From contig QIFC01000064.1 in the NCBI GenBank assembly GCA_003228685.1, forward strand, positions 1-64,000: a stretch of 64,000 bases of DNA. The letters are read 5' to 3'. Position 1 is the first letter of the stretch. Every line of letters begins with the position of its first letter. This stretch comes from Chloroflexota bacterium. GTDB lineage: Bacteria > Chloroflexota > Dehalococcoidia > DSTF01 > RBG-16-68-14. The translations under genes and the position numbers were made by a program. Positions 28,383 through 38,240 of the stretch are shown here, in pieces. The notes under the pieces were generated by a model. The model made no database searches and was not told where the DNA came from. It saw only the letters and a program-made list of their open reading frames with translations.

Positions 28383-28934
28383 CTACGCGGCCTCTGATTC
28401 GACAGCTACAGCGCCGCTCTCTTCTGTGACCCCGTCTTCCGCCGTCACATCTTGGGCGATGTCTTCCAGCAGAGACGCGAACGTCGCCGGCTCTACATCG
28501 ATGCCGTTCCTAATAGCGCGCGCGTGGTCTATGTCCAGGATCAGGCGGTCGTCCAATCGGGCCACAGACTTCAGATAATCGGCGTTTCCGATATCCGCTG
28601 TCACAGCCTGGAACACGTCCTTGGCGAGCGTGATCACTTCAGCAACCCCGTCCACCACGAGGCCGACTTTGCTGTCGCCGTAGCTGACGAGAACGATACG
28701 AGTTTCGCTCCCGAACTCGGCCGGTTCGTAGCACAGGCATGCCCTGAGGTCGACCACGGGTATGACGGAACCGCGGACGTCGGTCACGCCCAGCATATTC
28801 CTCGGAGACTGGGGGACCGCCGTAATCTTCTGCGTCGGAATGATCTCATGGACGGCATCTATTTCGATCCCGCACAAGACGTCAGCGACCTTCGTGATCA
28901 CGAGCTGCCGGTTGGTATCTGATTGCGTCTCCAT
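28383..28934 (-). CDS. cheW: CheW-type chemotaxis adaptor
   Basis: This 183-residue protein consists of one CheW domain plus an acidic, Ala-rich C-terminal tail. CGIEIDAVHEIIPTQKITAVP, VTDVRGSVIPVVDLR and VGLVVDGVAEV follow the CheW pattern. The adaptor would couple a receptor to CheA. The start at 28934 has a GGAG box eight bases upstream; the long open frame to 29366 adds unrelated sequence. It is transcribed divergently from the main operon across a 660-base gap, the only chemotaxis gene here on the minus strand. Confidence 0.88.
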   Translation of the reverse strand: METQSDTNRQLVITKVADVLCGIEIDAVHEIIPTQKITAVPQSPRNMLGVTDVRGSVIPVVDLRACLCYEPAEFGSETRIVLVSYGDSKVGLVVDGVAEVITLAKDVFQAVTADIGNADYLKSVARLDDRLILDIDHARAIRNGIDVEPATFASLLEDIAQDVTAEDGVTEESGAVAVESEAA

Positions 28935-29135
28935 GCTTGCGTCTCCTCTATTTCTTGTTGATGGTGGGGGATGTCCTAATGCCTTCTCCTGTGTATCGGC
29001 TCCCGATGTCGGACTCTGAACATCATTGTCATCCTGGCGGCCAGCTACTAGGGCGATCTGGGACTCTGCACATCTCCGCACCTGCCGCATGCTACGGAGG
29101 ATGTTCCGCTTCGAAGAGAACTGACCTGCGCCGCA

Positions 29136-29149
29136 GCGAAACGTTTCGC
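29136..29149. promoter_or_regulatory. 14-bp palindrome resembling a LacI/PurR-type operator
   Basis: GCGAAACGTTTCGC is perfectly palindromic around a central CG, like operators of the LacI/GalR family (for example the PurR pattern GCAAACGTTTGC). It lies in the divergent region of the chemosensory locus, about 200 bases upstream of the minus-strand cheW. Confidence 0.45.
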
Positions 29150-29569
29150 GGGACGCCCTTCGCAGCTCCCTTACCTGAAACCCGCCCCTCAAATCAGCGA
29201 TTGCCCTGATACCCCCGCTCATTCGACGAGCGAACATTACCAAGTGACTAGGTGAAGCAATGGCGGCCGGCCTAGCACGCCAGGAAGCTGCCACGCACAA
29301 GGAGGCCGTCTCACGATACGAGAGGAGGCTTCTAGAACGAAGGCACGGAGCCGCAAACGGCCGCATGAAGGGTGTGCGGCCCGAGAGCGGCAGCGAAAGC
29401 TGAGATTTCGTAGTAGTCGCCCGAAGTACCGAAGCGCAGAGCAGCTACCCAGTCGTAAAGAGAAGGAGAACCACGGAATATGGCCAGGCCAACGGTACAA
29501 GACAGGATGGCAGCCTAACATCCCAGGTGTGAGGGGGTAGCCCGAGCCGGAACCGGCCGGGCCGCCCCT

Positions 29570-29595: not shown

Positions 29596-30174
29596 GTGAC
29601 TTCAGAACAAGCAGCAATCACAACCCTAGAGCCGACCTCCGGCAGCACTTCGGATGGCGCGTCGAAGACGCACGCCAGCTGGCGGACCGGCGAGGACGCC
29701 CATGTCGTGATCCTCAGGTCCGGAGACGGGTTCTTCGGCATCGATATCACCACAGTTCAAGAGATTGTCCTTATGCAGGAGATCACCACGGTGCCCGCCA
29801 GTGCTACACACATCGCGGGGATAACCGACTTGCGAGGAAGAGTTGTGCCGGTCGCGGACTTCGCGACTTTGCTGGGCCGGACTCCGGGTGACCAGACCGA
29901 CGAGACGCGTGTGCTCGTCGTCGAGCAGGGAGGCGGCCACATCGGATTGATCGTTGATGCCGTCACGGAAGTAATGATGGTTGGCGGCGAAGAGATCGAA
30001 GACGCGAAGACGATTGGCGAGGAGGACCACGGATTCATCGTGGCCGTCGCGAAACTAGAAGGCAATCTGATCTCGCTCGTAGACATCGACGCCCTGCTCG
30101 TGGCGGCGAAGTCGAACTCGGGGCGAGAAGCGGTTGTCAACGAGGCCGCGGACGCGTCCGCTGCGACCGCGTAG
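29596..30174 (+). CDS. cheW: CheW-type chemotaxis adaptor
   Basis: This is a 192-residue CheW with an unstructured N-terminal 30 residues and an acidic/Ala tail. GFFGIDITTVQEIVLMQEIT, ITDLRGRVVPVADF and IGLIVDAVTEVMMV mark the domain. GTG is the start, as its in-frame position follows the AAGGGG arm of a hairpin. It is the first gene of the main chemosensory operon; a 167-base gap precedes the next small gene. A functional difference from the other two CheW copies cannot be read from sequence. Confidence 0.88.
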   Translation: MTSEQAAITTLEPTSGSTSDGASKTHASWRTGEDAHVVILRSGDGFFGIDITTVQEIVLMQEITTVPASATHIAGITDLRGRVVPVADFATLLGRTPGDQTDETRVLVVEQGGGHIGLIVDAVTEVMMVGGEEIEDAKTIGEEDHGFIVAVAKLEGNLISLVDIDALLVAAKSNSGREAVVNEAADASAATA

Positions 30175-30341: not shown

Positions 30342-30602
30342 ATGAGCACGAGCAAGCCAAGGCGCCTCCGCGTTCTGGATGCTTTCGACCGGCGCTTCCT
30401 CAACGAGATGCAGGACTGCTTCCCGCTTGCGCCCAACCCGTTCCTGGAGTTGGGCACAAGCGCCGGCCTAGCCGAAGAAGACGCCATTACGCGTATGCGG
30501 GCGCTGTGCGTCAACGAGCGCTTTACCGAGGCAAGGCGGCTCATGCTCACAAATCTGGGACTAGCGAACCTATGGCAAGAGGAGACTGTGGTTAATGGCT
30601 AA
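30342..30602 (+). CDS. Small AsnC/siroheme-decarboxylase-like HTH protein
   Basis: This 86-residue protein resembles the N-terminal winged-helix domain of AsnC/Lrp-type and AhbA/NirD siroheme decarboxylase proteins: RVLDAFDRRFLNEMQDCFPL, then PFLELGTSAGLAEEDAITRM, a typical helix-turn-helix. The downstream ligand or catalytic domain is absent. AAGGAGG lies just upstream of the ATG, and the stop overlaps the next cheW start by eight bases, so it is translated as part of the operon. A DNA-binding or protein-protein adaptor role is possible. The relation to decarboxylases is by motif impression only. Confidence 0.65.
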   Translation: MSTSKPRRLRVLDAFDRRFLNEMQDCFPLAPNPFLELGTSAGLAEEDAITRMRALCVNERFTEARRLMLTNLGLANLWQEETVVNG

Positions 30603-31080
30603 CGAAGAGACCGCCCAAGATGGACGGCATCTCGTCGTCTTCCGCCTTGGCAACGAAGCGTATGGCATCGACGTGAGGACTACCCGTGAGATCTTCCATC
30701 TCCAGGGCATCACACATGTTCCGAACGCACCAGAGTACGTCGAAGGCGTGATAAACCTGCGAGGCAAGGTTGTCCCCGTCATCGACCTGCGCAAGCGCTT
30801 CGGTGTTGAAGTGACCAAGGCCACGACCGACAGCCGAATCGTCGTCGTGGAGTACGACGGCGAAGACGTCGGGTTGATCGTGGACGCGGTGGAAGAAGTG
30901 CTTACCGTCGAAGCGGATCACGTTGCAGCAGCGCCGGAGGTCACGGAACAGGAGGGTACCAGCCTCACGCAGGGATTCGCCCAGCTCGACGATCAGCTGG
31001 TCATCCTAGTCGACATGGAGACGGTGCTAGGCGAGAAGGAAGAGGACAGCCCACCGCAGGCGCGTAAGGCCGCTGCCTAG
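30595..31080 (+). CDS. cheW: CheW-type chemotaxis adaptor
   Basis: This 161-residue single-domain CheW is the most canonical of the three: VVFRLGNEAYGIDVRTTREIF, VEGVINLRGKVVPVIDLRKRF and GLIVDAVEEVLTV. It lies directly upstream of cheA, with a 22-base gap, and overlaps the small HTH gene. It is the best candidate for the core adaptor of the signalling array. Confidence 0.92.
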   Translation: MANEETAQDGRHLVVFRLGNEAYGIDVRTTREIFHLQGITHVPNAPEYVEGVINLRGKVVPVIDLRKRFGVEVTKATTDSRIVVVEYDGEDVGLIVDAVEEVLTVEADHVAAAPEVTEQEGTSLTQGFAQLDDQLVILVDMETVLGEKEEDSPPQARKAAA

Positions 31081-31102: not shown

Positions 31103-33220
31103 ATGCCGGATATCGATCCAGAAGAACTGAAAGTCTTCCTGCAGGAAGTAGACGAGCAGCTTCAGCTTCTCGATCAGGACATTATCCGCCTGGAGAAGGA
31201 GCCGGACGACGCTGATCTGATCCAGGAGATCTTCCGGGCGGCGCACACACTCAAGGGTTCATCCGGCATGCTCGGCTTCAAGAAGATGGCGGGGCTTACG
31301 CATGTCATGGAAGACACCCTGGACCGCGTCCGCGGCGGCAAGCTTGCCGTTAGCGCCGAGCTAATCGACAGCCTCCTGCTGAGCTTGGACGCACTCAAGG
31401 CCATGACCGCAGGCCTGGAATCAGGAGAAGAGAGTACCTTCGAGATCGAACCGATGGTCGCATCGCTGCGTCAAGCGGCCGGAGATGAACCCGAGGCCGC
31501 AGCCGGCGCTGACGTGGAGCCGCGGGAGTCGATCGCGGCGCTGGTGGCTGAGGACGCCGAAGTGACGGAACGTATAGAGGCTGCTCTGGCAGACGACTCC
31601 ACGGTACGCGCCGTCCACATCGCCATCGTCAAGGGAACGGAATGGGCGGCCGTCCGCTGCCTGCAATCCCTGAATGAGCTGTCAACCCTGGGCGAGGTGA
31701 TCTTCTCGTCTCCGTCTCAGGAAGAGATCGAACAGGAGAAGGCGGACTCTCACCTGGACGTGATCATTATCGGCGGTGAGAATCCCGACGCCTTACGCGA
31801 CATCGTGTCAGCCATTGAAGACATCGAGCATGTGAGTGTCGAAACGTGGGCCGGCGCGAGCAACTCTACCGACGAACGGAAGGCTGATGACGGGCCTGTG
31901 GACGATGAAGAGCAGCGAGCCATCGATTTGGGTCCGGAGGCGCGTGGAAAGGAACCACGCGAGCAGTTGGAGATGGCAGGCCAGAAGATCGAGACGCTGC
32001 AGTCGATTCGTGTCGACATCGATCGCCTAGACGTCCTCATGAACCTGGTCGGTGAGTTGGTCATCGACCGCACCCGAATCGCCCAACTCAGCAGAACGCT
32101 GCGGACGCAGTATCGCGACAGTGAAGAGATTGAGGCGCTGAGCCAGACCTGCACACACATTGAAAAGATAGTCGACGAACTGAACGAAGGCATGATGGGC
32201 GTGCGCATGCTCCCGATAGGGACGCTGTTCAGCAAGTTCCCGCGCCTCGTGCGCGATGTCGCCCGCACCACTGGAAAGGCCGTGGATCTGGTCACCGAAG
32301 GCGAGGGAACAGAGATCGATCGCTCCGTCATCGAAAAGATCAAGGATCCGCTCGTCCACATGCTCCGGAATGCCGTCGACCATGGCATTGAAAGCCCGGA
32401 GGAACGTGAAGCCGCTGGCAAGCCAACGCCTGCGCAGGTCTACCTGTCTGCCCAACACGAGCAGGGCAACATCATTCTCACGTTACGGGACGACGGCAAA
32501 GGGATTGACCCGCAGGTGATGCGAGCGAATGCCGTCAAGAAGGGCATCCTCACGGCGGATGCGGCGGAACGCCTATCTGACGCCGAGGCTATCGATCTCA
32601 TCTTCGAGCCCGGATTCTCCACCGCGGCGAAGACCACCAATGTCTCAGGCAGGGGCGTCGGCATGGACGTTGTCAGGAGCGGTGTGGCGGCCGTGAACGG
32701 CCTGGTCAAGGTCACCTCTGAGGTCGGCAAGGGCACGACGTTTACACTCCAGCTCCCGCTGACGCTCGCCACATTCCGTGGCTTGCTTGTCGAGTCAGGA
32801 AACGGCGTGTACGCTTTCCCGCTCAGCTACGTGCAAGAGACCGGACAGCTAGATCCGGCGGATGTCGACGCAATCGTCGATGCGGAAGTACTGAAACGCA
32901 GCGGCGATGTGCTGCCGCTTCTACGTCTGGGTGACGCCTGCCAGAACGGCTCAGCGAACGGTGACGGACTGCGGGATCAGTTCGTTGTCATCGTCAAGGC
33001 GGGCGATCGGCCGGTGGCCATCGCCGTGGACGCGTTGCGAGAACAGCAGGAAATTGTGGTGAAGTCACTGGGCTCGTACATCGGCCAGGCCGACAATATA
33101 GCGGGCGCAAGTATTCTTGGGGATGGGCAAGTCGTGCTCATTCTCGATGTGGCAAGTCTCGTGAAAGAAGTGGCGCAGGGGAACCGGCGTGCGACAGAGC
33201 TTGAGAGGAGCATCTCTTGA
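31103..33220 (+). CDS. cheA: Chemotaxis histidine kinase CheA
   Basis: This 705-residue kinase has all five CheA domains. P1 contains the phosphorylated His48 in FRAAHTLKGSSGMLGF. A P2-like CheY/CheB-binding domain covers about residues 150-250. P3 dimerisation begins with SIRVDIDRLDVLMNLVGEL. P4 has N-box HMLRNAVDHGIESPEER, G1 DDGKGIDPQ and G2 GRGVGMDVV. P5 is a CheW-like domain. It phosphorylates CheY and CheB encoded downstream. The stop overlaps cheC by four bases (33217-33220). All catalytic residues visible are intact. Confidence 0.95.
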   Translation: MPDIDPEELKVFLQEVDEQLQLLDQDIIRLEKEPDDADLIQEIFRAAHTLKGSSGMLGFKKMAGLTHVMEDTLDRVRGGKLAVSAELIDSLLLSLDALKAMTAGLESGEESTFEIEPMVASLRQAAGDEPEAAAGADVEPRESIAALVAEDAEVTERIEAALADDSTVRAVHIAIVKGTEWAAVRCLQSLNELSTLGEVIFSSPSQEEIEQEKADSHLDVIIIGGENPDALRDIVSAIEDIEHVSVETWAGASNSTDERKADDGPVDDEEQRAIDLGPEARGKEPREQLEMAGQKIETLQSIRVDIDRLDVLMNLVGELVIDRTRIAQLSRTLRTQYRDSEEIEALSQTCTHIEKIVDELNEGMMGVRMLPIGTLFSKFPRLVRDVARTTGKAVDLVTEGEGTEIDRSVIEKIKDPLVHMLRNAVDHGIESPEEREAAGKPTPAQVYLSAQHEQGNIILTLRDDGKGIDPQVMRANAVKKGILTADAAERLSDAEAIDLIFEPGFSTAAKTTNVSGRGVGMDVVRSGVAAVNGLVKVTSEVGKGTTFTLQLPLTLATFRGLLVESGNGVYAFPLSYVQETGQLDPADVDAIVDAEVLKRSGDVLPLLRLGDACQNGSANGDGLRDQFVVIVKAGDRPVAIAVDALREQQEIVVKSLGSYIGQADNIAGASILGDGQVVLILDVASLVKEVAQGNRRATELERSIS

Positions 33221-33813
33221 ACGATCAAGAAATCGCGTTCTGGGCAGAACTCGTGAACAAGGGCACGAACAATGCCATGAACAACCTGTCACAAATGGTG
33301 GGCCAAGACATACAAGTGACTTCATTCGGCCTGAGGCAGATTCCGGTTGCGGAGACATCGCAACTTATGGGCGGGGCTGACGTGGAAGCGATCGGTATCT
33401 ACTTAACTGTCTCCGGCAGCGCGGATGGCCACATCATGCTGATGTACGACCCAAGAATGGCCTATGGCTTCGTTGACCTACTCATGGGCCAGCCAGAGGG
33501 AACCACAGAGGCTCTTGGGGAAATGGAGAGTTCAGCATTGGGAGAGCTCGGGAACATCATGGGATCGTCGTTCCTCAACGCACTGGCGGACGCCACGGGG
33601 CTGACGCTGATGCCTTCGCCGCCGCACGTCATGACAGACATGGCCGGCGCTCTTCTGGACATCATCGCCGCCGACATTCTGCAAACGCAGGATGACGCCT
33701 TCGTGGCAGAGGCAACATATCAGGCACCCGGTCGAAACATTTCTGGCATGTTCTTCGTCATTCCAACCCAGAACTTGCTGCAAGTGCTACTTGACACCAG
33801 GACGGCAGCGTGA
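33217..33813 (+). CDS. cheC: CheY-P phosphatase CheC
   Basis: This 198-residue CheC/CheX-fold protein has both CheC active-site repeats: AELVNKGTNNAMNNL near residue 10 and GELGNIMGSSFLNAL near residue 110. Each carries the conserved Glu and Asn of the E-x-x-N site. CheC removes phosphate from CheY and interacts with CheD. It starts with TTG in an overlap with cheA (the sequence reads CTCTTGAACG), consistent with coupling, and its stop overlaps cheD. In Bacillus and Thermotoga, CheC and CheD form an adaptation loop, likely also here. Confidence 0.88.
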   Translation: MNDQEIAFWAELVNKGTNNAMNNLSQMVGQDIQVTSFGLRQIPVAETSQLMGGADVEAIGIYLTVSGSADGHIMLMYDPRMAYGFVDLLMGQPEGTTEALGEMESSALGELGNIMGSSFLNALADATGLTLMPSPPHVMTDMAGALLDIIAADILQTQDDAFVAEATYQAPGRNISGMFFVIPTQNLLQVLLDTRTAA

Positions 33814-34313
33814 CAGTACAGAGTGCCACACAGCGAACTGACGTCGTCCTTGGCCTCGGCCAGATGCGCGTCACCAACGAGGCGGAGACGACCCTGGTCT
33901 GTCTAGGCCTCGGCTCGTGCGTGGCCGTCTGCGCGTACGACCCAATAGCCAAAGTAGCGGGAATGGCACATGTCGTGCTTCCAGCCAGTAGTAACGGCGC
34001 GGAGGCGCATCCGAAGTTTGCGGACGCTGCCATCCCGATCATCATCGAGCAGATGCAGGAGTTGGGCGCACTGAAGGTTCGAATGGTCGTCAAGATCGCT
34101 GGTGGAGCGCAGATGGTAGGCAATAACAGCACCATTGGCGTGATGAACATCGGCGACCGTAATGTGGAAGCCGTCACGGACGCCGTCAGGCAACATGGTC
34201 TTAAATTGCAGGCGGCCGATACCGGCGGCAACCACGGTCGCACGGCACGGTTCTTGGTGGGATCGGGCACGGTTCTCGTCTCGCAAGCAGGTGGGGCGAG
34301 CCATGAACTCTAG
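33810..34313 (+). CDS. cheD: Receptor glutamine deamidase CheD
   Basis: This 167-residue CheD shows LGLGSCVAVCAYD with the catalytic Cys and GMAHVVLP with the catalytic His, followed by KIAGGAQM. CheD deamidates or modifies receptor residues and stimulates CheC. It starts at GTG in a GTGA overlap with cheC. Its presence implies that receptors (MCPs) exist elsewhere in the genome, since none is in this window. Confidence 0.92.
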   Translation: MTVQSATQRTDVVLGLGQMRVTNEAETTLVCLGLGSCVAVCAYDPIAKVAGMAHVVLPASSNGAEAHPKFADAAIPIIIEQMQELGALKVRMVVKIAGGAQMVGNNSTIGVMNIGDRNVEAVTDAVRQHGLKLQAADTGGNHGRTARFLVGSGTVLVSQAGGASHEL

Positions 34314-34361: not shown

Positions 34362-34718
34362 ATGGCGACAGTCCTAGTGGTAGACGACTCTTCTTTCATG
34401 CGCATGCGCTGCGTATCGACTGTGAAGGAGCTCGGGTACGACACGGTCGAAGCAGGCGATGGCGCGGAAGCGATTCAAACATACAAAGACCAGAAGCCGG
34501 CTGCCGTGTTGATGGACATCACGATGCCCGGCACGGACGGCCTGCAGGCGCTCAAGGAGATCATGGCCTTTGATGGCAACGCCAGAGTGGCGATGGTCAC
34601 GGCTATGGGCCAGCAGAGCATGGTGATGGAGGCCATGAAGTCCGGCGCTAAAGACTTCGTGGTGAAGCCATTCGAACCAGACCGCGTGAAGGCGGCGCTG
34701 ACCAAGCTCCTCGCCTGA
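34362..34718 (+). CDS. cheY: Single-domain response regulator CheY
   Basis: This 118-residue receiver domain starts MATVLVVDDSS. The acidic pair (Asp-Asp), the phosphoacceptor in VLMDITMPGTDG, the Thr of MVTAMG and the Lys of VVKPF are all present, so it is phosphorylatable. The ATG at 34362 has GGAGG eight bases upstream; a GTG nine bases earlier is less likely. It lies between cheD and cheB and is the predicted output of CheA. The FliM-like peptide protein at the operon end is a candidate target. Confidence 0.93.
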   Translation: MATVLVVDDSSFMRMRCVSTVKELGYDTVEAGDGAEAIQTYKDQKPAAVLMDITMPGTDGLQALKEIMAFDGNARVAMVTAMGQQSMVMEAMKSGAKDFVVKPFEPDRVKAALTKLLA

Positions 34719-34729
34719 ACTGAGGAGTG

Positions 34730-35788
34730 ATGCAGAACAAGATTAGGCTACTCGTCGCGGACGACTCAGCGTCGGTGCGTAAGGTGCTAACCGAGGGCAT
34801 CTCCAGCGATCCCCAGGTCGAGATCGTTGGCGTTGCGCGTAACGGTATCGAGGCAGTCGAATTGGTCGGCAAGCTGAAACCGGACGTGGTCACGCTAGAC
34901 GTGGAGATGCCACGCATGAGCGGCATCGAGGCGCTTGAGCGGATCATGGCGGATCAGCCTACACCCGTCGTCATGGTCAGCAGCCTGACCGGCGAGGGCA
35001 CCGCAACGACGATACGAGCGCTGGAGTTAGGCGCCGTAGACTTCGCTCTGAAGAAGGCGTCCCATGGCTCGGTCGCGGTTCGTGACCTGATCGACGAACT
35101 GCTTGAAAAGATCCACGCTGCGGCTGCCTCGAACGTGATTGGGCTGGCCGAGAGTAAGAGCGCAGCGGATGAGAGCGCGCAGGATGACGACCTGCAGCTT
35201 GCCTCATCCCACATTCGCGTGGCGCTTATCGCCAGCTCAACGGGTGGCCCGCAGGCGCTCCGGATGGTGATCCCGGCGCTGCCGAGAGACTTGGCAACGC
35301 CGGTCTTGGTGGTTCAGCACTTGCCAGCCGGATTCACGGCACGGATGGCAGCGAGCCTGGACACAGCCTCGCCACTGAAAGTAGAAGAGGCGAAGCCTGG
35401 CGTGCGGCTTGAAGCCGGCAAGGTCCTGATTGCGCCGGGAGGCGTCCACATGCGAGTGTCGAAGATAGGAACGATCCGGCTGAGCCTGGAGGACCGCGAA
35501 TGTGGCGTGCGGCCCTCCGCGAACCCAACCATGGAATCGCTCGCCGAGGTATACGGTGAGGCGACGCTCGGCGTCGTGCTGACAGGCATGGGCACGGACG
35601 CCACGCGGGGCGCCGGCCTCATCAAGGCCGCCGGGGGCACGATCATCGCCGAGGACGAGTCGACGTGTGTCGTGTACGGCATGCCGAAGAGCGTGGCGAC
35701 AGCGGGGTACGTAGACAAAGTCGTGCCGCTGACCCGCATGGCGTCGGAGATCGCAAGGCGGTGTCAGGTACAGGAGCGCGCAGCGTGA
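34730..35788 (+). CDS. cheB: Protein-glutamate methylesterase CheB
   Basis: This 352-residue protein has a receiver domain (LLVADDSASVR, phosphoacceptor VVTLDVEMPRMSG) and a C-terminal methylesterase domain. The catalytic triad motifs are ASSTGGPQAL (Ser), VVQHLPAGFTARMA (His) and VVLTGMGTDATRG (Asp). It demethylates and deamidates receptors. ATG 34730 is preferred over GTG 34727; GGAG lies just upstream. The stop overlaps cheR (GTGA). Confidence 0.93.
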   Translation: MQNKIRLLVADDSASVRKVLTEGISSDPQVEIVGVARNGIEAVELVGKLKPDVVTLDVEMPRMSGIEALERIMADQPTPVVMVSSLTGEGTATTIRALELGAVDFALKKASHGSVAVRDLIDELLEKIHAAAASNVIGLAESKSAADESAQDDDLQLASSHIRVALIASSTGGPQALRMVIPALPRDLATPVLVVQHLPAGFTARMAASLDTASPLKVEEAKPGVRLEAGKVLIAPGGVHMRVSKIGTIRLSLEDRECGVRPSANPTMESLAEVYGEATLGVVLTGMGTDATRGAGLIKAAGGTIIAEDESTCVVYGMPKSVATAGYVDKVVPLTRMASEIARRCQVQERAA

Positions 35789-36603
35789 ACGAGACAGAAT
35801 ACAGCCTGCTCAAGAGGAGAATCCACGAGCTGTTGGACATCGACATCAACGCGTACAAGAGCAAACAGATGCGCCGGCGATTGGAAGCGTTCGTTGATGG
35901 CAATGCGCCGCGTGGCGTGTTCCCGTTTTGCAAACAACTGGAGGAGAATCCTGAGCAGCTCCAGGCCTTGCGAGACATGCTGACCATCAACGTCTCCGAG
36001 TTCTTCAGAGACGAGCCGCAGTTCGCAGTCCTGCGCTCAACGGTGCTCCCCGATCAGCTTCGTAAGGGGGGCAAGCTCAACATCTGGACGGCCGCCTGTT
36101 CGCACGGAGCGGAGCCCTACTCGGTCGCGATCTTGCTGGACGAACTGCACGCGGGGGCTGGACACCGGATCTTGGCGACCGACATCGACCGGACGATCCT
36201 GGCGCAGGCAAACGCGGGAGGTCCCTACCAAGCGAACGAGATACGCAATGTATCCAGGGGCCAACTGGCGAAGTACTTCTCGCCGGAGGGAACAGGCCAC
36301 CGGATTGAGGAGGCGATACGCGAACGCGTGGAGTTTCGCGAGCATAACCTGCTTTCCGATCCGTTTGAGGAAGGCTTCAGTTTGATCTCATGCCGCAACG
36401 TGATGATCTACTTCTCGGCGGAAGTGAAGCGGCAGTTGTTCCAGCGGTTCCACGCTTCACTCAAGCCGGGAGGCGTGCTCTTCCTGGGCGGCACCGAAGC
36501 GATGCTTGGTGAAGATGCCGCCGGATTCGAAAGACTGTCCACGAACTTCTACCAAAAGGATGACTCGGCCGAGTCAGCGCCCCGCCAGCGCATGGCGGCA
36601 TAG
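35785..36603 (+). CDS. cheR: Chemotaxis methyltransferase CheR
   Basis: This 272-residue CheR has an N-terminal helical domain followed by a SAM-binding domain. TINVSEFFRDEPQF, WTAACSHGAEPYSVAILL (SAM motif I, with Ser/His in place of the more usual Ser/Thr-Gly) and ISCRNVMIYF are diagnostic. It methylates receptor glutamates. The start is a GTG overlapping the cheB stop, with AGGAG nine bases upstream, so the longer open frame is not used. No C-terminal receptor-tethering extension is visible. Confidence 0.92.
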   Translation: MNETEYSLLKRRIHELLDIDINAYKSKQMRRRLEAFVDGNAPRGVFPFCKQLEENPEQLQALRDMLTINVSEFFRDEPQFAVLRSTVLPDQLRKGGKLNIWTAACSHGAEPYSVAILLDELHAGAGHRILATDIDRTILAQANAGGPYQANEIRNVSRGQLAKYFSPEGTGHRIEEAIRERVEFREHNLLSDPFEEGFSLISCRNVMIYFSAEVKRQLFQRFHASLKPGGVLFLGGTEAMLGEDAAGFERLSTNFYQKDDSAESAPRQRMAA

Positions 36604-36633: not shown

Positions 36634-37707
36634 GTGCGTCGTGCGTCAATCCGGCAAGTAAAAGCGGGGATGGTCCTGGGCAGGGCCGTCTACGATATCC
36701 GTGGCCGGCTTGTCCTGAGCGAAGGCGAGAAGCTCACGAAGGACAGTCTTGGCCTGCTTGCACGATCCGGGGCGGCCGAGATTCTGGTTGAGGACCCGCG
36801 CGTCGCGGACGTCATCGTCGGTTCTCTCTACCCGGCAAGGGTGGAGGCCAAGGCCGTCCAGGCGCTCCGCCTCCTCATCACGACGATCGAAGGCCAGGCG
36901 GATGGGATCTCCGAGAACGACATCATCGGCATCTATCCACAGGTGAACGATATGGCGAAACGCCTCGTCCCTGAGATCGCCGGCGAACCGGAAGTCTCCG
37001 GACCCCTGACCTTGCAGGGCTACGATCCCATCCACGCCGTAAAAGTCACGGGGGTCGCCATGCTGCTCGGCCGGTACGCGGAGATGGGGCGCGAAGAGTT
37101 GGTCGAATTAGGCATGACCGCAATGCTCTCAAACATCGGCTACGGAGCGCTACCACCCGGCCTACTGGACGAACCGAAGCCGCTCGAAGAACACGAGCGA
37201 GAGACGCTCCACACGCATCCCGTAGAGGGCGCGAAAATGCTGATCGATTCTGGGCTGAGCGACCTAGCACTCCGCGGAATAGAACAACATCATGAGCGCT
37301 GGGACGGCTCCGGCTATCCCGAAGGGCGCAAGGGCGATGAGATCTCACGCTACGCGCAGCTCATCGCGATCGCCGACACGTACCACGCGATGCTCTCCAA
37401 GCGGCCCCATCGTCCGGCGTTCAAGCCACACGAGGCGGTGGAGTTCGTCGTCGCTTTCGCCGGCCAGCTCTTCGAGCCTGGGCTATCACAGCTTTTTGCC
37501 AGGCGGATGCCCCAGTACCCGTCCGGCCTTGGCGTGAAGCTCAGCACCGGCGAGATCGGCATCATCTCTGATCCGAACGCCGGTCATATTGCCAGACCGA
37601 TTGTTCGGATCTGTTTCGAGAACGGTGCGGCTCTGGACGATCCGTATGACCTTGACCTCTCCAATGAGGAGACCATGAACAAGATCATCACCGAGGTGCT
37701 GCTGTGA
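36634..37707 (+). CDS. HD-GYP-like protein with degenerate HD motif
   Basis: This 357-residue protein has an N-terminal DUF3391-like region (RQVKAGMVLGRAVYD... GRLVLSEGEKLT) and an HD-GYP-type domain (about 130-290). The GYP half is well kept: HHERWDGSGYPEGRKG and AIADTYHAM. The metal-binding HD of the usual LHDIGK is replaced (MLSNIGYG), and the preceding His-Ala segment is partly changed. Phosphodiesterase activity on cyclic di-GMP is therefore doubtful; binding or scaffolding is possible. The GTG start has AAGGAG eight bases upstream. It follows cheR by 30 bases and overlaps the FliM-peptide gene by four, so it is part of the chemosensory operon. Confidence 0.82.
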   Translation: MRRASIRQVKAGMVLGRAVYDIRGRLVLSEGEKLTKDSLGLLARSGAAEILVEDPRVADVIVGSLYPARVEAKAVQALRLLITTIEGQADGISENDIIGIYPQVNDMAKRLVPEIAGEPEVSGPLTLQGYDPIHAVKVTGVAMLLGRYAEMGREELVELGMTAMLSNIGYGALPPGLLDEPKPLEEHERETLHTHPVEGAKMLIDSGLSDLALRGIEQHHERWDGSGYPEGRKGDEISRYAQLIAIADTYHAMLSKRPHRPAFKPHEAVEFVVAFAGQLFEPGLSQLFARRMPQYPSGLGVKLSTGEIGIISDPNAGHIARPIVRICFENGAALDDPYDLDLSNEETMNKIITEVLL

Positions 37708-38240
37708 GTGGTGAGGTGATGTCCCAGGAGGAGATCGACGCGTTGGTCGGCTCGGAGCCCGATCCATTGACGGCAGCCGCTGCACCAGAGCCAGCGCCGA
37801 CAGTCCCAACTCCAGGGCCAACACCCGCGCCCGTTGCGGCGGCCGCTGCTCCAGCACCAGTCCCGGCGGCGGTACAAGCCCCCGCCCCGACGCCAATACC
37901 AGCCAGCCCCACGCCGACTCTCATGGTTTCAGCGGACAGCTCTGACACGTCGGACATTGCCCGGCGAGTAGCGAGTTTGGAAGCCAGCGTGGCAGCGCTA
38001 CAGCAATCCGTTGGAGGCGGCCAAAACGATGCTGTGATACAGGCATTGAGTCAGCAGGTGCAGGCGCTAAGCGCGCAAGTGACGCAACTAGGGCCGCATC
38101 TCCAGAACAGCCTAGGCTTCGGTCTACGCGGCTCGTTCCAGTGTGGTTCCTGTGGCACGCAGGGCGCGGTCGGCTCGCGCGTCTCGTGTATGCACTGCGG
38201 CACGGAGTCCTGGATCGGCTGGTCGGAGCAGAGCGCCTAG
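37704..38240 (+). CDS. FliM-like CheY-binding peptide, Pro-rich linker, coiled coil and zinc ribbon
   Basis: This 178-residue protein starts MSGEVMSQEEIDALV, close to the FliM/FliY N-terminal consensus (LSQDEIDALL) that binds phosphorylated CheY. Then follow about 55 residues of Pro/Ala linker, a coiled-coil segment (DIARRVASLEASVAALQQSV, about 90-135) and a C-terminal zinc ribbon C-x2-C-x11-C-x2-C. None of the FliM middle or FliN-like SpoA domain is present. GTG 37704 overlaps the previous stop; ATG 37719 would start directly with the peptide. It is the last gene of the chemosensory operon. I infer a CheY-P-responsive output adaptor; a vestigial FliM fragment is the alternative. Confidence 0.75.
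   Translation: MSGEVMSQEEIDALVGSEPDPLTAAAAPEPAPTVPTPGPTPAPVAAAAAPAPVPAAVQAPAPTPIPASPTPTLMVSADSSDTSDIARRVASLEASVAALQQSVGGGQNDAVIQALSQQVQALSAQVTQLGPHLQNSLGFGLRGSFQCGSCGTQGAVGSRVSCMHCGTESWIGWSEQSA

Follow-up and report, generated by a model that had tools for sequence, protein, structure and literature searches.

Which protein could receive the output of a complete chemosensory operon in a bacterial genome without FliM? The question arises in a 64,000-nucleotide stretch of DNA from a Chloroflexota bacterium (contig QIFC01000064.1 of assembly GCA_003228685.1; hereafter the window), where a che operon ends in a small gene, here called the adaptor gene (37704-38240, plus strand, 178 amino acids). 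An initial annotation made from the sequence alone had read its product as a receiver of phosphorylated CheY (CheY-P) that serves a non-flagellar machine. Functional archaella in bacteria were shown only in 2025, and how chemotaxis might control them was not settled, CheF being absent: the archaeal protein, which binds CheY near its phosphorylation site and passes CheY-P to ArlCDE (PMC9126983), is reported missing from Chloroflexota, where another component between CheY and the archaellum may exist (PMC12488501, a 2025 paper).

A FliM-type peptide and a zinc ribbon in one small protein

The che operon of the window is complete and lies entirely on the plus strand. It comprises cheW (30595-31080; PF01584, 133 bits), cheA (31103-33220; PF02895, PF01627, PF07194, PF02518 and PF01584), a cheC/cheX-like gene of the CheY-P phosphatase family (33217-33813; PF04509, 45 bits), cheD (33810-34313; PF03975, 97 bits), cheY, encoding a Thermotoga-type receiver (34362-34718; PF00072, 97 bits; 124 bits to T. 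maritima CheY, 1tmy/4iga), cheB (34727-35788; PF01339, 200 bits), cheR (35791-36603; PF01739, 183 bits; start approximate, the ORF being open from 35665), an HD-domain gene (HD_5, 36634-37707; PF13487, 93 bits) and, last, the adaptor gene. The latter starts at a GTG that overlaps, as GTGA, the stop codon of the HD gene; a GAGG stands a few bases 5'. This arrangement bears out the proposed coupling of the adaptor gene to the end of a complete che operon. Two more CheW-like genes adjoin the operon (28383-29366, minus strand; 29596-30174, plus strand), and an 86-amino-acid NirD-like/AsnC-type HTH protein is encoded immediately 5' of cheW (30342-30602, plus strand).

Read from the GTG, the N-terminus is MSGEVMSQEEIDALVG, a FliM-type CheY-binding peptide. 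The initial annotation had given it as MSQEEIDALV; the likeness to FliM stands, as judged by a weight matrix and by alignment, but that start had been placed at an internal ATG. The peptide itself, MSQEEIDALVG, occupies residues 6-16 (37719-37751, plus strand), is predicted by AlphaFold 2 to form a helix over residues 8-16, scores 18.4 bits with the matrix and has a Q8 and a D12 that are invariant in the alignment of relatives. It is followed on the same strand by a Pro/Ala-rich linker predicted to be disordered (residues 17-79; 37752-37940), a coiled coil of two predicted helices (residues 80-138, helices 80-102 and 109-134; 37941-38117) and a zinc ribbon (residues 139-173; 38118-38222). The ribbon cysteines, Cys147, 150, 162 and 165, form a C-x2-C-x11-C-x2-C motif that is invariant in 11 aligned relatives, and likewise in an alignment of 15 rows. 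Conservation among relatives is higher in the peptide (56%) and the ribbon (44%) than in the linker (28%) and the coil (20%).

The AlphaFold run on the adaptor gave a low overall confidence, with pLDDT below 50 over most of residues 19-81; when the C-terminal part was modelled separately, the ribbon was short-stranded with pLDDT of about 82-86. The linker, coiled coil and ribbon described at the outset are seen both in the sequence and in these predictions, and the reported lack of a FliM core and of SpoA domains holds, Pfam recognising neither in the protein. The adaptor falls into no family of Pfam or NCBIfam, the sole matches being sub-threshold hits to coil or low-complexity models. A fold search with the ribbon against the PDB gave nothing significant, a PDB profile search yielded mainly coiled coils and further chance matches, a search of the accessible literature found no description of such a protein, and the plasmids searched contained no match.

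The weight matrix was built from eight distinct FliM peptides of class-mates and, being made from FliMs only, is independent of the adaptors. All intact adaptors score between 9.0 and 31.5 bits, the lowest value belonging to the G202 peptide, scored from its observed sequence; the best of about 1,200 other scored ORF N-termini reaches 7.3 bits. A chance motif is ruled out by this matrix. On sequence grounds, the identity of this end of the protein as a FliM-type peptide is well supported.

The genome of the window encodes an archaellum cluster

A search for related loci yielded a single relative, in a MAG of the Dehalococcoidia which corresponds to class-mate G181, and the class of the genome follows from it. 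The window belongs to a 3.53 Mb draft genome, 87% complete, of the Dehalococcoidia (G000), in which the FliM domain has no match. A hidden flagellum is ruled out on this ground, and the observation that would have refuted the initial annotation, a flagellar motor with its own FliM, was not made. On another contig (C17) of the draft lies an archaellum cluster encoding an archaellin (PF01917, 91 bits), ArlH (NF052589, 222 bits against a cut-off of 215), ArlI (NF058587, 642 bits against 550) and an ArlJ-type protein that is the best match yet remains under its cut-off (426 bits against 570). Archaellin, ArlH and ArlI exceeding curated cut-offs within one cluster is the criterion for archaellated Chloroflexota, which is met here. 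The cluster also includes a 337-amino-acid protein with a coiled-coil-like start; the proteins of 241-436 amino acids adjoining the archaellin are not recognised by Pfam, so that they can be labelled ArlCDE-like by position only. Since the genome lacks FliM and carries this cluster, the non-flagellar machine that receives the signal is probably the archaellum.

The adaptor follows the joint presence of CheA and ArlI

We identified an intact adaptor in 12 of 294 Dehalococcoidia genomes (G000, G202, G012, G145, G113, G131, G143, G190, G090, G283, G213 and G181). In all 12 it ends a che operon, and all 12 keep the N-terminal motif, whose lack of conservation would have spoken against the initial annotation. 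Where the end of the operon is intact, the adaptor is preceded by an HD gene, which was not found in FliM operons; the exception is a second, ribbon-less copy in G190 that adjoins the first. Of 14 further genomes that matched the family profile, among which 11 have an intact adaptor, none has FliM. The homologues occur with che operons lacking a flagellum, as had been anticipated.

CheA is present in 39 of the 294 genomes and ArlI in 50, including one fragment and one match just below cut-off. All 10 genomes having both, which represent seven family-level groups, carry an intact adaptor, compared with none of the 40 that have ArlI without CheA and a single one (G213) of the 29 that have CheA without ArlI. 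FliM exceeds its cut-off in 20 of these 29 and in 0 of the 10 archaellated genomes with CheA; none of the 20 has an adaptor, and FliM and the adaptor were never found together in one genome. Fisher's test among the genomes with CheA gives p = 1.7e-8, uncorrected for kinship (seven family-level groups). Most archaellated Dehalococcoidia are without detectable CheA, and the archaella of those 40 genomes apparently run without a CheA pathway.

In two genomes, G213 and G181, an intact adaptor is accompanied by type IV pilus ATPases, and no ArlI was detected, so that an archaellum is not necessarily the target everywhere: either the archaellum was lost, or the dock is able to serve a pilus. CheA of G181 is seen only as a fragment because the contig ends inside cheA. 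In a related genus (g122; G170 and G149), a ribbon-less protein with the FliM peptide (L133, 6845-7357; L225, 613-1110) and a conserved C-terminus of its own, VLNKKLxxLG, closes the che operon. In G226, a collapsed che region (L045, 4000-4900) consists of cheY, the tail of cheB and a frame-broken remnant of the adaptor ribbon. Outside the class we found only weak matches; of those inspected, one adjoins a FliN-like ORF that carries an LSQEEIDAL peptide of its own, and another has a start of the FliM type. In 400 genomes of the phylum, ArlI was not found outside the class, so the archaella of Anaerolineae are not covered.

Genomic neighbourhoods of the che and arl genes

The che operon, the adaptor and the arl cluster adjoin on one contig in three genomes, G012 and G145 (L040, L041) and G113 (L048), and che and arl lie apart in the other adaptor genomes. 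In G012 and G145 the che genes are followed by HD genes, the adaptor, three regulator genes and the archaellum cluster, in that order; in G113 adaptor gene and arl cluster face each other, about 150 bases apart. G113 also has two tandem ArlI genes (L048, 3676-7167), and two neighbouring ArlI copies are found in each of G068, G063, G175 and G219. In G131, a second, divergent set of CheA, CheB and CheD (L137, contig C57) adjoins a KaiC-type protein and pilin-like ORFs, and the T2SSE ATPase of this locus scores 366 bits to the ArlI model.

Three archaellated f64 genomes, G143, G131 and G226, encode proteins that combine the same coil and zinc ribbon with a hydrophobic segment at the N-terminus and lack the FliM peptide (L043, 9334-10782; L046, 9811-10824; L045, 2924-3607), which fits a coil-ribbon module working at a membrane motor. 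Each adjoins a small membrane-type protein of 161-173 amino acids.

Related che systems with a possible exchange of receivers

In their alpha4-beta5-alpha5 region, CheYs from operons with the adaptor closely resemble those from operons with FliM, and T. maritima CheY resembles both. The solved CheY sequences closest to that of the window are those of T. maritima, among them 4iga, which we take to be the entry of T. maritima CheY with the FliM N-terminus. A structure of this complex is attributed to Ahn 2013, as cited in PMC9126983. In the CheA phylogeny, all adaptor operons fall into one supported group, within which the FliM-bearing G110 and G289 are nested (98/97); a single clade of adaptor operons is disfavoured, if weakly (AU test, p = 0.044). 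We read this as an exchange of the receiver: che systems that are related to one another would drive a flagellum in some genomes and an archaellum in others.

Discussion

As a CheY-P adaptor, the protein would play a role of a known kind; its architecture and wiring are new. With FliM and FliY it shares the N-terminal CheY-P-binding helix LSQxEIDxLL, a FliM-binding-type CheY and the position at the end of the pathway. In contrast to them, it has neither the middle domain (PF02154) nor a SpoA/FliN domain, in place of which stand the linker, coil and zinc ribbon, and it occurs in genomes without FliM. With CheF it would share the task of linking CheY-P to the archaellum motor. CheF consists of two PH-like domains (PMC9126983), and neither these nor the C-terminal tail of CheF have a Pfam or NCBIfam match in the adaptor, whose hook is instead a FliM peptide predicted to sit on the alpha4-alpha5 groove of CheY, where FliM binds (PMC9126983). 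The report on Chloroflexota archaella (PMC12488501) names no adaptor; G000 has such an archaellum cluster, the probable target.

We put at roughly 70% the probability that the protein is an output adaptor carrying the CheY-P signal to the archaellum. CheY-P (34362-34718) would bind the N-terminal helix LSQxEIDxL through its alpha4-beta5-alpha5 groove, as with FliM, and the flexible linker would allow the captured CheY-P to reach the motor, while the coil would oligomerise and the zinc ribbon dock on the archaellum. The adaptor would then stand in for archaeal CheF, its hook for CheY being of the bacterial FliM type. Sequence data establish the peptide and the ribbon motif, the che operon and the archaellum cluster, the lack of FliM and the co-occurrence; CheY-P binding and oligomerisation are inferred, without binding data. 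Least certain among the inferences are what the ribbon, which has no known binding partner, docks on and how rotation is affected. Weighing against this reading are G213 and G181, the ribbon-less proteins of their relatives G170 and G149, and, in G000, the two Tad-type ATPase loci and the placement of che operon and arl cluster on separate contigs of a draft. The proposal of a CheY-P receiver for a non-flagellar machine is supported by the absence of FliM, the conserved motif and the flagellum-less che operons, its binding and docking steps being likewise inferred.

Could the same observations arise without a link to the archaellum? If the machine reached by CheY-P through the adaptor were instead a pilus, of the type IV or Tad kind, its co-occurrence with the archaellum would merely reflect shared motile lineages. 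This is unlikely, though some room is left for it by G213 and G181, whose adaptors accompany PilB-type and shorter T2SSE ATPases, and by the two Tad-type ATPase loci of G000; against it stand the presence of the adaptor in every genome with both ArlI and CheA, its adjacency to arl in three of them, and the fact that, besides ArlI, the ATPases of G000 are of the Tad type only. That the peptide binds CheY-P and relays nothing to a motor, the adaptor being a CheY-P sink or an array-localising factor, we consider quite improbable. No motor contact has been shown, and the gene is encoded within che operons and follows CheA rather than ArlI, as the absence of intact copies from archaellated genomes lacking CheA indicates; but a sink would be equally useful in the 20 genomes with CheA and FliM, none of which has the adaptor, and the operons already encode a CheC-type phosphatase.

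There is very little to recommend a decayed FliM or FliY whose N-terminus persisted once the flagellum was lost. The peptide is FliM-like, and archaella and flagella are mutually exclusive in Chloroflexota (PMC12488501), as such a history would have it, yet peptide and ribbon are conserved over eight family-level groups, and nothing in FliM corresponds to the ribbon, which is found also on separate membrane proteins.

We therefore retain the output adaptor as our reading, and regard the family as a strong candidate for the CheY-archaellum link reported as missing in Chloroflexota. It is also rather probable that it constitutes the missing link between bacterial chemotaxis and the horizontally acquired archaellum, a new family that grafts the FliM hook for CheY-P onto a zinc-ribbon dock, such that one che lineage drives a flagellum through FliM or an archaellum through the adaptor. 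A small family that tracks CheA and ArlI and bears a FliM hook is a testable candidate for archaellum control and, if the proposal is true, the transfer of a single short peptide would have re-wired a two-component output to an unrelated motor.
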